DNA of 64,000 nucleotides, taken from positions 235,123-299,122 of the forward strand of contig JAALGZ010000044.1 in NCBI GenBank assembly GCA_015227615.1, in the 5' to 3' direction. A model generated the notes under the pieces. The model did not search any database and was not told where the DNA came from. It saw only the letters and a program-made list of their open reading frames with translations. The translations under genes and the position numbers were made by a program. This document shows, one piece after another, positions 47,957 to 54,770 of this stretch (position 1 is the stretch's first letter; every line of letters starts with the position of its first letter). Origin of the DNA: Labyrinthula sp. Ha (lineage: Eukaryota > Sar > Bigyra > Labyrinthulida > Labyrinthulaceae).

Positions 47957-49211
47957 AATAAAAAGCACAAGTTTATGTATTTAAGATTTAAAAAAGAGTT
48001 ATGATATATATTTCGCAAAAGAAAACACTTCTTTTACACAACAAAAGCTAAAAAAATAGATTATTAGTGCTTTTATGAAGATTCTGTAAATATGTTTTAT
48101 TCTAGAAGTATATTACGTATTTGAAATAGAATCAGTTTACAAATATATTACTCCTGTAAAAGGGATATACACAAAACCTCTTATTTAAAGCTTGATTAAA
48201 TATTCTAAACAAGAGGTCAAAAATTTAAACACGTTGTGTTAACTGAAGTTTCATAGGCACTTTCTAAAAAAATATCTATTTTTTTGGACCATATATTTAA
48301 TAATTATTTACAAGTAAATAGAAGGATTAATTTCACTACAGAGCGTTAATAAGAAAAAATAACATCTGAATTGCAGCTTAATCAAGACATTTTTCTTGGC
48401 CATAGCTAAATTATTAAAAGCAAAGAGAATTAAGTATGAAAAAATATATTGTTTTGTCCTTGTTAAGTTTCATATTCAGAGAAAATTTGAACAGAGACAA
48501 CAGTACTCAAGCTTTATTCATTCATGTATTTAACAACTAGTGCTTCAACACAAGATTCTAAACTTATTGAGATTTACAAAACCATAGTAAGTTATTTTTA
48601 ACAATATTATATAGTTTTATTTTACATGATATATTTATATTCACGGAGAAACTAATACAACAATTTATACTTATAAGAGTTTGAATAAATTCTAAAGAAG
48701 AATATTTATGGAAACACAATGATGCAATACCACACTCAATATAAAGTCAGCCATCTCGAAAACAAGTAGATTTATATTAATTTGATATACGTAGAACTCA
48801 TCCATAATGTTATATTTGTCACCGTTGCTGATAAAAATATTTGCACTTTAGTTTTTTCGTTTGATTTTTTTGCTGTGAAATATTATTTTAGAGAGTTTCA
48901 ACCTCAAATTAGATCGTTTTTATTCCTATTTCTAAGTTACATTCTATTGAGTGTTCTTGTCCGATAAATAAACTCTTCTTTAGATGCGGCCGAGTAGCAG
49001 TCGTGCAAAGGTAATACCTAAAAAAGTATATGTTGTTCTCTTTTTCCTAAGATTTAATAATTAATTGTATACTCAGATTATTTATGACGTGACATCGTGT
49101 AAAACTCATAACAAAATATAAATATAAATACAACTATATAAGAGATATTCACTCAAAAGGCGTTATGCCGTAGCAATTATCAATAATAATTTAAAATAAT
49201 TTACTTGTGGT
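47957..49211. other. Intergenic, nothing recognised
   Basis: Very AT-rich, no frame with motifs. Confidence 0.4.
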
Positions 49212-49238
49212 CGGAATTTGCATGACAGGCTGTCATGC
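49212..49238. repeat. Left end repeat of the Crypton-like element
   Basis: CGGAATTTGCATGACAGG then CTGTCATGC. Its core GCATGACAG-G-CTGTCATGC (49220-49238) is a perfect 9-bp inverted repeat about one base, the layout of a tyrosine-recombinase core site. Confidence 0.6.
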
Positions 49239-49457
49239 GATTTCCAATAGCGAATAGCGCAATTTCATTAGTTGAACTCTGGAAACAGGAATTCAACCGA
49301 AAGTAAAAAAAGTAACACTCAAAATGAAATGAGCACTTTGGAGGTTGCAGTTTAATCTAATAACTATCATATTCTGCGACATGACAAGTAGAACCCAGAA
49401 CTGGATATAGATGCTTCGTTCGAGGCAAGATATGAACTCACATAATTGATGTACTGA

Positions 49458-50266
49458 CTGGACTTGAGTTGGATCTAGAGGATCAAGTTGCCATTGATGT
49501 TCTCTATACATTTTAGAAGAATATGGAGAATGAAGAAGACCAAAAGTCCTTCGTAAACCTTTTTCACTTCCTAATGGATAAAACATTTCAATTCTTTAAC
49601 CATGCAGGAAATCATGGTCTGCTGAATAAGAGTGGCTCCTTGAAAACATCAATCGAACTTGGGCAAGTGTTTATCTTTAACTGATTTCTAGCTATTGGTT
49701 TTAATCTTGATAAAGTTATCAACTTTTATACATGCTTCTTGAATCGCAATCTATTTTCTGAAGTGTATGTGGATGAAAATATCAGCTGTCATGTTTACTT
49801 AAAGCCACTTGAAACAGAATCTGTTCTTATAAGTTCAACTTGTGAAGTACACAGGTGCAAAGAGTGTTACTTTTTGGACAATGATAGAATTGTTACTAGA
49901 GTTGAAAACTATTTGCTAAACACAAAACTCCAGGGTGATCAATTAATCTGTTTATCTTCTGATGTATTTAACTTTGTTCAAAAGCCTTTGGGAAGAGATT
50001 TGTCTAACTGTATAGATAGAGATAACTCAATGATAAGAAGGAAAAGAGCACACCTTATTATTCAAAATGCAAGAATGTTATTACATTCTGGTTTAGCTGA
50101 TAAAAGGCTAGTTGACTTGGAAAGAAATAAAGGTGAATTTGTACAAAAACAGTTTGGTTCATTGTTAGCTAAACTTGAACTAGTTATTTCTGAAGCCATG
50201 AAATCAGCTGAGGTTTATTCTATTCCCAAAAGTGTTCAGTTTAGAGTCTGTGATTTCCCGTTCTAG
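49458..50266 (+). pseudogene. Second ORF of the Crypton-like element, decayed
   Basis: One plus-strand frame stays coding-like for ~270 codons with two stops only (TAG at 49514-49516, TGA at 49682-49684). It includes QVAIDVLYTF, NLFHFLMDKTFQFFNHAGNH, a cysteine pair CEVHRCKECYF and a long helical C-terminus. No family is recognised. Its position inside the element and its composition suggest a cargo or accessory protein. Confidence 0.45.
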
Positions 50267-50289
50267 TTAATTGCAACCCTTTTCATTTT

Positions 50290-50512
50290 AATTTTACAGC
50301 CGTTTGCCAGCTTAATTCCTTTGTCCTTATAGATCTCTTCATTGGGGTAACTTTTTCCCCTGCAATAACCCTTTTTCATCCATCAAACCAAAGCTGAGCA
50401 TCCTGAAGACTTTTAATTGATGGAGACAGGTTTTTCCTGCTTGCTTCATTCTTAAGTAAGTTAATCAAGAATTTTAAATCACTGAGTTTTTTTTCGGCAA
50501 TTACGAATAAAC
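50290..50512 (-). pseudogene. Coding-like remnant downstream of the recombinase
   Basis: A minus-strand frame reads KLSDLKFLINLLKNEASRKN, then SIKSLQDAQLWFDG, a stop, and more helical sequence. It may be the original C-terminal part of the recombinase after a frameshift, or another element ORF. Confidence 0.35.
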
Positions 50513-50580
50513 ATGTCAATTGGCATGCAAGTTTTCAATAGTGGTAGGCTTTTCCCAGCATTACCACAATTCCAAATCAA

Positions 50581-52402
50581 TCAGAGAGAACGCGCAGTTC
50601 CTTTTGGAAATGAGAACCCTACAGGAACACGTCTTAGAACATTATCTGGCCAAAGGTTTAAGGTAAATGGAGGAGTAGAGCTTATCATATTTTCAACCCC
50701 TTCCTCTTCATTTTCATCATTGCCTGTAAGGGTTCTCATTCTTTCTAAGAGAAATTCTGTTTCATGCTTTACAAACGCCTCACCTAACATCTTTTTTAGT
50801 ACAGCATGTGTGATTACTCCAGATCCAACATCACGTTCCTCTAAAACATCTTTAATATGAGTAAGAATGATTGATCTGTCCTCAATTCTAGATCTTTTAT
50901 TTCGTTGAACCAATTCACCTACAACTCTACCCACATGATGAAGTTTTGTTAAGATGTCTACGTGTGCGGGAATTCCTGTCGCCTGGAGACCATTTCCATC
51001 AGAGTTAGAAACACCGCAAATCACTTTTTCTCTAAGAGTTTGAATTAGGCTTTTCTCCTGAAAAATTGGGGTGTTAAAAAGAAGATGATTTTCTGGTAGC
51101 TCTTTTCTTAAAAAATTCTCATGGTACACCATTGATGCTAAACAAAACTCCAGAATCAAAGAGATTTGTTTTGGAGCGCTTGGAAACATCAACTGCTTAG
51201 CTCTTTCTACCTGGTCATCAGCAAACTCAAATCTTGGTGGTAGTGTAGAAAACTTGTAGCTGCTAATTGGTAGACCGCTTAGAGTACGTCCCACGTACTG
51301 ATCTCCAGCAGCCTCAAAGCGAAGGTAGACGTTTAAAACAGTGCCCATTGACCATCCAGCACGTAACTGAACTGCAGCAATTGGAGGTGCATTACTGTGA
51401 CCTGGAGCACAGAAAGTTGCTGCACCTTTTCTTAGGGAATGAGTTCCAAACTCCTCAGGAGTCAAACCTCTTCTCCTAAGCTCACTCTCAACTTCATCGA
51501 GACTAAAAATTCTTTTCTGACCTTTTCTAAACCTGTCGTACTGATTGTTTCCACCAAAAAGAGAGGTGCCATCTCCAAATCCAAAGATTGACCAGTACAT
51601 ACCAAGGGACAAAACTGGACAAATTTCAGGTTGTAGCGGATTAGCGTAAACGTGTCTAGGATCTCTAGCTTTTTCACCTGTTTGATCATTCTTCTGATGG
51701 CAGAAAATGATGCAAGGGACATCTTCTTTCCAAGTTAAGTGCCTGTAATGAATGCTGAAAGTGTTAACAGCTCTACACATTAAGTTCCAAGTGATTGTTA
51801 AAAATGTCTTGAAGAAAACAAAATCCTTTTTCTCAGTGTGCGACATTGCTAAATTAAGGATCTTGAACAAAGGCATTGCAAGAGGATCTTTCCCACATTT
51901 AATCACATCTTGACCTGCTTGTTCTTCCGAAGCAATTTTTCTTTTTAAACCTCTAAAATGATTTTTTAACTCGTTCTCAAACTCAGAACTAAAACGAACT
52001 TTGTGTTGACGGCAAAGACTGTAAAGAGCAGAACGGTGAGTTGAGTAACTAGAAAAACTGAAAAAGCTCCCATCACTTCTTTTCTTAGTTACAATCCACG
52101 ACATGAAGGTTTCTACATCGAGATCATCAAATTTCAAGGGTGGTAGATTCGGAAAAATTTTACCTGTTTTCCTAATGAGTTTTAAACTCATTGGCGCTTC
52201 AGCATCACTTCCTTCCTTCAACTTCTTAAGAAAATCTTCAGCCAAAAAAAACATTGGGTTTGTTTCTTACGCACCAAGCTAGAAATTGGGTGTAGGAACC
52301 CTCGTACGAGCTCTGAGAGTTTTTGGCAATCGTGTTTGCTCTGATTTCCGAAACATGTTGTGAAATCTCTGCCCAATCCTCTTCATTCAATCGATCGTCC
52401 AT
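50581..52402 (-). CDS. Crypton-type tyrosine recombinase, one frameshift
   Basis: From ATG at 52402 the frame reads MDDRLNEEDWAEISQ, with the N-terminal core-binding pattern SSYEGSYTQFLAWC, to ~52255. It then shifts by one base at a run of eight A (52244-52251), after which a 550-residue frame continues to the stop at 50581. The catalytic domain shows the first Arg region CRAVNTFSIHYRHLTW, then HSLRKGAATF (box II H-x-x-R), RAGWSMG and the presumed nucleophile Tyr in VLNVYLRFEAAGDQYVGRT. These features match the YR proteins of Crypton transposons described from fungi and oomycetes. The frameshift inactivates this copy unless it is a sequence error in the homopolymer. Confidence 0.8.
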
Positions 52403-52846
52403 TTTTCTTCGAACTAAAAAATTAAGTAGGAAACAGGTTCTAGCAACAATTTATATCTTAGGTGAAATATAAAATTGCTTTTCCCTAACAGAAACAAGGA
52501 AAGCAACAAAGTTTATCCCATTGTTTTCTCTTCTTTTGCTCGCATTTTAGGCAAATAGTAAAATCGCGTATCGTCAAAAACTACAGAAGATATCATAAAG
52601 TTAAATACAAAAAAACAGCTTTAAAAGAGCTTTCCAACTAGCCGAAAACCGGTAGAAAAGAAGAAATATTCGTCGAGTTTTACCTATCTCTTTTTTTTTA
52701 GCTATCTTTGTTTGATTTGTGTTTGTTTTCAGCAAATTAGAATTGTATGGTAATCCCCCACTATCATTTTATCCTGTGTTCTCTTCTACAAAGCTTGGCA
52801 AGACCAGAAGGCCTTTTCATTGGCTCTTTAAAAAAAGTATTACAGC

Positions 52847-52947
52847 GGTCATACGAATTCCGGTTAAAACTGGCTTAATTCTTACCTAGGGAAATCCTAG
52901 CACTAAATTTTGAAAAAAAATTATGACTTACCGGAATTCGTATGACC
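52847..52947. repeat. Perfect 18-bp inverted repeat at the right end
   Basis: GGTCATACGAATTCCGGT (52847-52864) and its exact reverse complement (52930-52947), separated by 65 bases. The right arm overlaps the right end repeat of the element. In an AT-rich genome an 18-bp perfect match is not expected by chance. Confidence 0.8.
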
Positions 52948-52958
52948 TTCTGTCATGC
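52932..52958. repeat. Right end repeat of the Crypton-like element
   Basis: CGGAATTCGTATGACCTT then CTGTCATGC; 22 of 27 bases match the left end repeat in the same orientation, differences clustered in the centre. Confidence 0.6.
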
Positions 52959-53084
52959 AAAACATCAATTTTGGGTAATTTGCCCTACTTTTTCCAGTTA
53001 ATTATTAATTATTGGATTAAATTAATATTAAAAATATTTTTGAAATCTTTTATAAATATACTCAAAGACTTCCTTTGATAGTTA

Positions 53085-53210
53085 CATACTATTATATCAC
53101 AGTATTACATTACTGTAAATACCGCCTAACAATTAACCTATCAATCAAAGACACAAACTTACAAAATATTCATTGACTCGTATCTCAACAAATACTGCGA
53201 GTTAGAAGAC
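53085..53210. repeat. Solo-LTR-like dispersed repeat, copy 2
   Basis: AGTATTACATTACTG (from 53101) is followed by TATCTCAACAAATACT and GAGTTAGAAGA (53181-53209), as in the copy at 36.3-36.4 kb with nearly equal spacing. Confidence 0.45.
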
Positions 53211-53373
53211 ATTATTTACATCAATTTAAAGCTCTAAACTTGAACTTTAAGCTTCTGCACTTTTCTCGCTACTTATCTACATCTCTACTTAGTATACGCC
53301 TTTTCTTTTCTCTCACTAATATATTATTAATAAATCAAATTTAAAACTTATTCACATCATATCTTTTCAAATA

Positions 53374-53419
53374 TCGATACGAACAAACCCGAGCTCGATA
53401 AACTACGTTTTCGTATCGA
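53374..53419 (+). promoter_or_regulatory. Inverted repeat before the thiolase gene
   Basis: TCGATACGAA (53374-53383) and TTCGTATCGA (53410-53419) are perfect reverse complements with a 26-nt spacer, ending 46 bp upstream of the start codon. CG dinucleotides are rare here, so this may be a paired binding site. Confidence 0.4.
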
Positions 53420-53465
53420 GTATGTCTTTTTCCGATCATAATATTCATCGCACTCTTACAGTAAA

Positions 53466-54770
53466 ATGAGAAATAATCAAAATAAGAATATGAACAAAGT
53501 AAAAATTCTTGCATTTAAAAGAACTCCAATGGCATCATTTGGATCTGTTTATTCTCATTTATCAGCTATTCAACTTGGAATTCATTCAACAAACTCTCTT
53601 TTTTCTTCTCTTACAAATGTTTTTCCAAGAGATGTGGATGATGTTTATTTAGGAAACGTACTTTCAAGTAATTTAGGTCAAGCACCTGCTAAACAAGTTT
53701 CTTTAGGAGCTGGAATTCCTCCATCTGTTCCATGTACAACAATAAATAAAGTTTGCTCTTCTTCTCTAAAAGCTCTTGAAATATCTTCTATGCAAATTCA
53801 ACTTGGTTTATCAGATTTAATACTAACAGGTGGTTTTGAATCTATGTCATCAGTTCCAAGATATTTAACAAATAGTAGATTTTCAAAAGGAAATAAAAAA
53901 TATGGAGATATAAAAATTAATCAAATTAATAATTTAGATAAAAAAAGTGTTGAAATTATTGATGGATTAGCAAAAGATGGACTTGGAGATCCTTTTACAA
54001 GAGAGCAAATGGGTCAATTTGGAGTTCTTGCAGCAGTTGAGAATAAAATAACAAGAGAAGAACAAGATGAATGGGCACTTAATAGTTATAAAAGAGCTTT
54101 TAAAGCTCATAAAGAAGGAAAATTTTCTAATGAAATAGTTAGTATTCCTGGAATCGATTTACAAATTGATGAAGAAACACTTTTAAGAGGAGAAAATATG
54201 ACAAAAGAAAAAATATCTTCATTACCATTTGCTTTTAAAATACCAAAAGAAAAACAAAATTTAATTAAAACAAAAGAAGATGAAAAATTTTCTCAAAGTG
54301 TAACTGCAGGAAATAGTTCAACTATGTCAGATGGAGCAATTTCTATGTTAGTTGCAAGTGATAACTTTTGTAAACAAAAACAACTTACACCTTTAGCTAA
54401 TATTATTATTCATACTCAATCTGCTCAAATTCCTGAAAGATTTACAACATCACCTATTCTTGCAGTTGAAAAAGCTTTGAATCAAAGTGGTTTAACTATT
54501 AAAGATATTGATTTTTGGGAAGTAAATGAAGCTTTTGCTATAGTTCCTATTTTACTTTGTAAGAAATTAGGTATAAGAAAAGAAAAAGTAAATATTTATG
54601 GAGGAGCTTGTGCTTTAGGACATCCACTTGGAATGAGTGGAGTTAGAATAGTAGGAAGTTTAATTAGTGTTTTAAAACAAGAAGGTGGAAGACTAGGTTG
54701 TGCAGTTATTTGCAATGGAGGAGGAGGTTCAAGTTGTGTAATTATAGAAAACGTAATAAGTAAATTATAA
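53466..54770 (+). CDS. Acetyl-CoA C-acetyltransferase (thiolase)
   Basis: An intact 434-residue thiolase. The acylated cysteine lies in NKVCSSSLKALE (about residue 96). GGFESMSSVPRYL, EQMGQFG, SVTAGNSSTMSDGA and NEAFAIVP are family blocks, and the catalytic base regions GGACALGHPLGMSGVR and CNGGGGSSC carry the second His and Cys. The sequence is closest in pattern to acetoacetyl-CoA thiolase (two acetyl-CoA to acetoacetyl-CoA and the reverse), used in the mevalonate pathway, ketone or branched amino acid metabolism. No clear presequence or PTS1 is seen (ends SKL-like only in reverse reading: ...VISKL; the last three residues are Ser-Lys-Leu, which is in fact a canonical peroxisomal targeting signal). 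Thus peroxisomal location is likely. Its stop abuts that of the convergent gene. Confidence 0.92.
   Translation: MRNNQNKNMNKVKILAFKRTPMASFGSVYSHLSAIQLGIHSTNSLFSSLTNVFPRDVDDVYLGNVLSSNLGQAPAKQVSLGAGIPPSVPCTTINKVCSSSLKALEISSMQIQLGLSDLILTGGFESMSSVPRYLTNSRFSKGNKKYGDIKINQINNLDKKSVEIIDGLAKDGLGDPFTREQMGQFGVLAAVENKITREEQDEWALNSYKRAFKAHKEGKFSNEIVSIPGIDLQIDEETLLRGENMTKEKISSLPFAFKIPKEKQNLIKTKEDEKFSQSVTAGNSSTMSDGAISMLVASDNFCKQKQLTPLANIIIHTQSAQIPERFTTSPILAVEKALNQSGLTIKDIDFWEVNEAFAIVPILLCKKLGIRKEKVNIYGGACALGHPLGMSGVRIVGSLISVLKQEGGRLGCAVICNGGGGSSCVIIENVISKL

Follow-up and report, generated by a model that had tools for sequence, protein, structure and literature searches.

The element at positions 49203-53003 of the window (the whole 64-kb stretch analysed, C93:235123-299122, in an assembly of 50.8 Mb and 153 contigs) is probably a Crypton-type DNA transposon that relies on a tyrosine recombinase (YR) only, a reading of the sequence by which it would be excised as a circle, be inserted at A-N-T-T targets, and carry accessory arrays of recombinase sites in two 27-mers and a third palindrome, R2. 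As judged from the aligned copies, its ends are reproducible and recognisable, and lie slightly outside the 27-mers. A sequence-only reading had called it a Crypton-like element delimited by the 27-mers; it is a YR element with such ends, but its boundaries are not at the 27-mers. Its extent and the short repeats at its ends are as follows.

49203-53003, minus strand (that of the YR gene): the whole Crypton-like element, 3801 bp; the flanks of copies diverge here, and where other copies have paralogous empty sites, these break at matching points
49199-49202, no strand: left ANTT (ATTT), assigned to the target and forming a direct repeat with 53000-53003
53000-53003, no strand: right AATT, the element's own

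The two 27-bp direct repeats are present as that reading had them: 49212-49238 (CGGAATTTGCATGACAGGCTGTCATGC) and 52932-52958 (CGGAATTCGTATGACCTTCTGTCATGC) are identical at 22 of 27 positions, with mismatches at repeat positions 8, 10 and 16-18, and the GCATGACAG/CTGTCATGC inverted pair of the left one is perfect, 1 bp separating its arms. Comparison of the left 27-mer with the 64-kb window, on both strands, gives scores of 23 for its own overlapping reverse complement, 22 for the right repeat, 18 for the reverse complement of that repeat, and 18 for the best unrelated place (47680); since nothing unrelated exceeds 18/27, the repeats are not due to chance. Across the whole genome, GCATGACAGNCTGTCATGC with at most 2 mismatches occurs at 25 sites per strand, as compared with 1 for the reversed control, and 22 of these 25 lie, by position, at the ends of element copies, the window's included. 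The three sites elsewhere (C72:601020, C73:255578 and C80:409818) are identical to each other (GAATGGCAGGCTGTCATGC), lie outside the family, and perhaps belong to another repeat.

Twenty stretches holding 20 other element copies of the same genome were compared with window positions 48000-54000. The match starts at 49184-49201 in 17 of the 20 loci, the remaining three beginning inside the element, and ends at 53003-53013 in 19, L033 being cut by the contig end. Read base by base, the element starts with ACTTGTGG where the unrelated left flank ends, and stops with GGTTAATT before the unrelated right flank, so that the sequence common to the copies is ACTTGTGG...GGTTAATT; the copies read hardly vary in the bases beside the crossover, and the outermost bases form no terminal inverted repeat. 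The right end has 27 matches in the genome, window included. Copies C138:59284-63632 (~4.3 kb) and C131:60052-67819 (~7.8 kb) appear to be split by insertions. Breaks in the copies and the empty sites fall at 49203 and 53003, rather than at 49212 and 52958 as had been proposed, which is the outcome named beforehand as refuting the 27-mers as boundaries; we therefore take 49203-53003 as the element, whose true ends lie beyond the 27-mers by 9 bp on the left and 45 bp on the right.

The left flank of the element (48943-49175) matches paired repeats ~6.8 kb apart, LTR-like in arrangement (C78, C148, C118, C2, C1), and the right flank (53060-53318) a repeat found at least at 39 other places (39 of 112 candidates scored), several pairs of which lie ~4.84 kb apart (C13, C86, C117, C116, C68), as in a second LTR-like family. 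An intronless thiolase ORF (53466-54770) starts ~460 bp beyond the element's right end, and the end of contig C93 (62690-64000) consists of subtelomeric GTAGGTTTAAGTAGTATGATGAAT-type repeats that pass into telomere-type TTAGGG repeats.

Fourteen insertions were counted as independent. L034 and L037 were merged as C103, and six copies were left out: L033 (right end beyond the contig, left flank the same as that of C103), L035, L036 and L038 (left end outside the fetched piece), and L044 and L045 (flanks the same as those of L039 and L040). Paralogous empty sites exist for six of the 14: the L050 site is empty within the flanks of L041 and L048, and L039, L041, L043, L047 and L048 have empty relatives at other genome places. 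None was found for the other eight, window copy included, among the candidates scored (40 of 233 and 40 of 211). L055 was tried as an empty site of L040, and was not counted owing to large indels.

In these comparisons an insertion reads as the element, ...GGTTAATT|ACTTGTGG..., joined to a target A-N-T-T. The target has A at -4 in 14/14, T at -2 in 13/14 and T at -1 in 14/14 insertions; an A at -4 in all of them has a chance probability of 4e-7, given flank composition and uncorrected for the choice of position. The targets showed no recombinase-unit arms. The following departures were noted: the L040 target reads ATCT, not A-N-T-T, the right end of L043 is GATT, L048 reads AATTACT with ATT in its two empty sites (the C is possibly the element's), and L049, for which no empty site was found, reads AATTAGT. 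One of the two L043 empty sites (L053) lacks the last T, and one of the two for L050 reads AAAGTT. The terminal direct repeats of the 14 insertions are thus ANTT/AATT, with one position free and no long terminal repeats. The TT at the junction can be assigned to target or element alike, but the two repeats differ at -3 in 7 of the 14 insertions, with T or G on the left as compared with A in the element's right repeat, and we therefore read the left 4-bp copy as the target's and the right as the element's. Three of the four L048 and L050 empty sites have the -3 base of the left repeat. A target-site duplication was considered and rejected, as repeats differing at -3 in half of the insertions would be impossible without later mutation.

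Two elements (L034 and L037) lie head to tail in C103, with the junction GGTTAATTACTTGTGG. The predicted 22-bp circle junction has exactly one match in the genome, at this tandem, and its reversed control has none; a circular intermediate would fit such a tandem carrying the exact circle junction. Three further places match it with 3 mismatches: the left ends of L043 and L049, and a place next to the right end of L042 that resembles a second junction in decay. By the mechanism that we propose, the YR would excise the element as a circle with the junction ...GTCATACTTTTTCCGG-TTAATT|ACTTGTGG-TCGGAATTTGCATGAC..., this junction would be the core site, made of two inverted 15-bp units around the crossover, and the circle would then recombine with genomic sites that need little beyond A-N-T-T. 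It is hardly credible, in comparison, that the 27-mers are themselves both boundaries and recombination sites with differing spacers. Each of them has inverted arms, as a YR site would, but copies and empty sites break further out on both sides and the tandem is joined at the outer ends. Their differing centres had been taken for the spacer heterogeneity of one site, a view at odds with the aligned copies, across which two distinct sites can be made out, a palindrome on the left and an asymmetric site on the right.

The proposed core site and the 27-mers are built from the same 15-bp unit, CGGAATTCGTATGAC, which flanks the crossover in inverted orientation, and whose opposite orientation builds the 27-mers. 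Its occurrences are listed here with their matches to the unit.

49212-49226, plus strand: unit L-a (CGGAATTTGCATGAC), 13/15; first half of the left 27-mer; also serves as right arm in the putative core site
49232-49246, minus strand: unit L-b, 12/15; second half of the left palindrome
52837-52862, minus strand: third palindromic site R2, with the half GTATTACAG at 52837-52845 (plus, 9/15) and a unit at 52848-52862 (minus, 15/15)
52932-52966, plus strand: right subterminal site R1, that is, the right 27-mer plus 8 bp, with a unit at 52932-52946 (plus, 15/15) and a weaker A-rich half at 52950-52966 (minus, 9/15)
52982-52996, minus strand: terminal unit R0, left arm of the putative core site; the family majority GTCATACTTTTTCCG has 12/15 there

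Across a joined sequence made of the element's final 260 and initial 118 bases, CGGAATTCGTATGAC reaches 15 at -157 (-), 15 at -73 (+), 12 at -22 (-), 13 at +9 (+) and 12 at +29 (-); the two 15/15 matches define the unit and the remaining three (12, 12 and 13) serve as its test, the unit being derived from these same sequences. Partners with 9/15 at -176 (+) and -53 (-) complete two palindromes, and three other 9/15 places have no such role. The -22/+9 pair is inverted with CGGAA toward the crossover, and the 27-mer pairs are inverted with ATGAC toward the centre. Four places of the window reach at least 12/15 (L-a, L-b, R1 and R2), R0 being degraded in this copy. In a 3800-bp majority sequence built from 17 of 21 rows, duplicated insertions among them, five places reach at least 11/15, all of them within 46 bp of the left or 157 bp of the right end. 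Random 400-bp sequences contain a place of at least 12/15 in 11 of 2000 cases and of at least 11/15 in 111 of 2000. In the aligned ends, the sequence of the right terminus, GTCATACTTTTTCCGGTTAATT, recurs internally as GTCATACGAATTCCGGTTAAAA, 17 of 22 positions being identical. Two features of this array go beyond the sequence-only reading, namely an inverted third half-site (52847-52864) and the terminal unit (52982-52996). The spacing in the core, 16 bp between its 15-bp units, exceeds the 6-8 bp usual at YR sites, unless the arms extend inwards, and speaks against this reading.

The 27-mers are best read as subterminal arrays of putative recombinase-type sites, accessory to the terminal core. 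The recombinase-like cores earlier ascribed to them are borne out in so far as the 27-mers are built from the unit that flanks the true crossover, but their role as exchange sites is not supported, and the unit points the opposite way in them. CGGAATTYGYATGAC is the sequence that the YR would be expected to recognise, and the 27-mers together with R2 would probably hold extra recombinase molecules, for synapsis, direction or regulation. A somewhat unlikely alternative is that the palindromes are operators for a regulator, be it the YR regulating itself or a host factor, with no role in recombination. The YR start codon (52402) has R1 and R2 ~435-565 bp upstream, and GCATGACAGnCTGTCATGC is a perfect dyad that would suit a dimer. 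The left palindrome, however, neighbours the second ORF at the other end of the element, the CGGAATTCGTATGAC unit also flanks the crossover itself, and the sites, which cluster at both ends, have been retained in the five deletion derivatives that were read. Mean pairwise identity is 0.897 for the left site, 0.922 for the right, 0.867 for the third and 0.915 for the element overall; the sites do not exceed the remainder of the element in conservation, and so give no sign of selection. Most divergence among copies is probably decay after insertion.

Returning to the crossover at the proposed core site, target sequence extends to -3 in each of the 14 left junctions and is followed by TT (CT in L040) and by element sequence that begins at ACTTG; at the right junctions the element's AATT (GATT in L043) precedes bases that vary between insertions, with L048 as a possible exception. 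The left junctions, and the right ones save possibly that of L048, are compatible with a switch at TT. Since the dyad axis of the core lies within ACTTG, a 6-bp overlap would be TTACTT. Exchange of both strands with a 6-8 bp stagger would leave a heteroduplex overlap, so that about half of the lineages should show reciprocal junctions after replication; the arrangement is the same in all 14, with no reciprocal left junction. This pattern would be explained by an overlap of only ~2 bp, by strand-biased inheritance or by biased repair. A more specific and tentative proposal, which we hold to be possible rather than probable, is that exchange of the top strand only integrates the element, that replication resolves the resulting Holliday junction and that the subterminal palindromes enforce the bias. 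With a TTACTT overlap on the dyad axis, top-strand exchange by itself would yield the junctions seen, the target matching just the first two swapped bases (TT), and the TT requirement would be what the first strand swap tests. If true, this would be a eukaryotic YR transposon that integrates through the exchange of only one strand.

The coding content of the element comprises the following.

50241-52402, minus strand: YR gene, start codon at 52402, broken in the window copy; longest open part 50581-52266
49523-50266, plus strand: second ORF, 247 codons, with one in-frame TGA in the window and intact in L043
49321-50194, plus strand: stretch shared with C77:396368-397290, including most of the second ORF; DNA identity 82% and 72% in two queries

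In the window the YR frame is lost near the N-terminus and meets a stop near the C-terminus (3 stops and 5 inserted bases as compared with L031), while it is open over 718 codons in L031 and in L034, one of the two C103 copies; L033 is also open. Profile searches report PHROG_1 integrase (E 3.1e-4) and Phage_int_SAM_4 (E 1.2e-4, below the Pfam cut-off), and R209, K236, H320xxR323, W349 and Y358, 9 residues after the W, were picked by eye as candidate catalytic residues. The R-K-HxxR-W-Y signature of a tyrosine recombinase, as asked of a Crypton, is thus found through weak but consistent profile matches and residues chosen by eye. Pfam analysis of the YR up to E 10 returned no match to DUF3504 or GCR1_C, which we take to be the Crypton YR models, or to DUF3435, presumably that of the Starship captain. 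A PDB sequence search returned no match, AlphaFold run on the window YR ORF alone without an alignment gave a pLDDT of 35, and relatives were sought by pattern in viral contigs (no match) and in bacterial and archaeal genomes (26 matches, none confirmed). Within the genome, the YR-type ORF has 65 matching pieces, the window's own included. L030 holds a ~30%-identical relative that keeps R, K and HxxR and loses the frame at W/Y, with 13 stops in the matched stretch; over its 4188 bp, no end repeats comparable to those of the element were found. Further pieces at ~26-57% identity, most with stops, lie in C63, C1, C78, C13, C91 and C121, and may be older separate families or decayed copies. Variation at codon positions 1/2/3 of the YR (0.082/0.076/0.082) gives no overall sign of selection, with more variation at third positions in the first 100 codons (0.056/0.060/0.092).

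The YR is the sole mobility gene in the ORF lists of the window, L031, L033, L034, L037 and L043; Pfam scans of the YR and the second ORF returned neither a reverse transcriptase nor a transposase, and the remaining ORFs of the element do not exceed 140 aa. 2-bp target-site duplications are common, and the TT common to both junctions could be read as one, left by a DDE-type or other transposase that moved the element, with the YR as a passenger or resolvase, as in the ciliate Tec elements. We consider this very improbable: the ORF lists offer only the YR, the short ORFs and a second ORF without a Pfam match, the outermost bases lack a terminal inverted repeat, and A stands at -4 in all 14 targets.

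The second ORF itself looks like a captured gene fragment, as far as sequence comparison tells. Protein and DNA searches of the genome with its stretch report a sole match outside the element family, the C77 locus (C77:396206-397300, in part L064), which may be a host gene or another element: the ORF is 74% identical over 228 residues to C77:396356-397039, inside a 735-codon open frame whose 3' part it shares. Its variation by codon position (0.093/0.091/0.099) gives no overall sign of selection, but in the first 100 codons, taken per 50, third positions vary more (0.075/0.054/0.088 and 0.054/0.073/0.092), so that it may have been under some constraint. Some copies are, from their alignment, deletion derivatives: 7 of the 27 matches to 49260-49700 stop at 49478-49483, and the five read (L046-L050) resume at 51881-51885 and keep both ends. 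They lie at different genome places, some within copies of one repeat family, and were probably moved in trans.

Crypton ends and target rules are described as hard to define in the available part of Kojima & Jurka 2011 (PMC3212892). Here the ends are known exactly from a single genome, which also supplies empty sites, deletion derivatives, the junction of a tandem and, in the repeated unit, a likely recombinase footprint. With ends, junctions and unit known from one genome, the questions of core versus accessory sites and of one- or two-strand exchange become testable with one protein and short DNAs.

Among known systems, the element resembles the TnpI site of Tn4430 and the FRT site of Flp in having a core unit pair with extra unit copies nearby. 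Those two sites combine a core pair of recombinase units with additional copies, and function in resolution or plasmid inversion rather than in insertion at targets without arms. Integron cassettes are bacterial and rely on folded single-stranded attC sites. They are likened to the element by an asymmetric YR reaction with replicative resolution, as far as the available part of PMC4792948 describes it, a similar one-strand product being only inferred for the element. In the strand-biased circularising elements of Vibrio (SE; Nonaka et al. 2022, PMC9345347, available part), one-strand exchange was inferred from junction sequences; like them, the element has a YR, imperfect inverted core-type motifs at its ends and a target without inverted repeat, but SE are bacterial, have two YR genes and take a 6-bp spacer from the donor flank, whereas the crossover-adjacent bases of the element are nearly fixed. 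DIRS, Ngaro and VIPER elements, characterised by reverse transcriptase, RNase H and split or inverted repeats in the portion of PMC4157794 at hand, were considered and set aside, as the two main ORFs have no reverse transcriptase or RNase H domain and the element has no other long ORF. Starships, as presented in part of PMC12506042, share eukaryotic YR mobility, direct repeats and empty sites; they are much larger, with cargo and a DUF3435 captain, and this assignment was rejected for an element of 3.8 kb whose YR has no DUF3435 match. Cryptons (CryptonF/CryptonS), by the consulted part of PMC3212892, have terminal direct repeats as presumed recombination substrate, a proposed circle, non-autonomous deletion derivatives and, in some, extra ORFs. 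Unlike them, the element has a repeat, ANTT/AATT, with one base free instead of a shared 5-6 bp word, a 15-bp unit array at both ends and a second ORF that looks captured and is not a C48 peptidase, differences that hold against Cryptons as described there; its YR also lacks a DUF3504 or GCR1_C match. Among the matches listed, no title or opening of an abstract describes unit arrays at Crypton ends. What the element has in common with the Cryptons of that same source (PMC3212892, in part) is a YR as mobility gene without reverse transcriptase, short terminal direct repeats and deletion derivatives.
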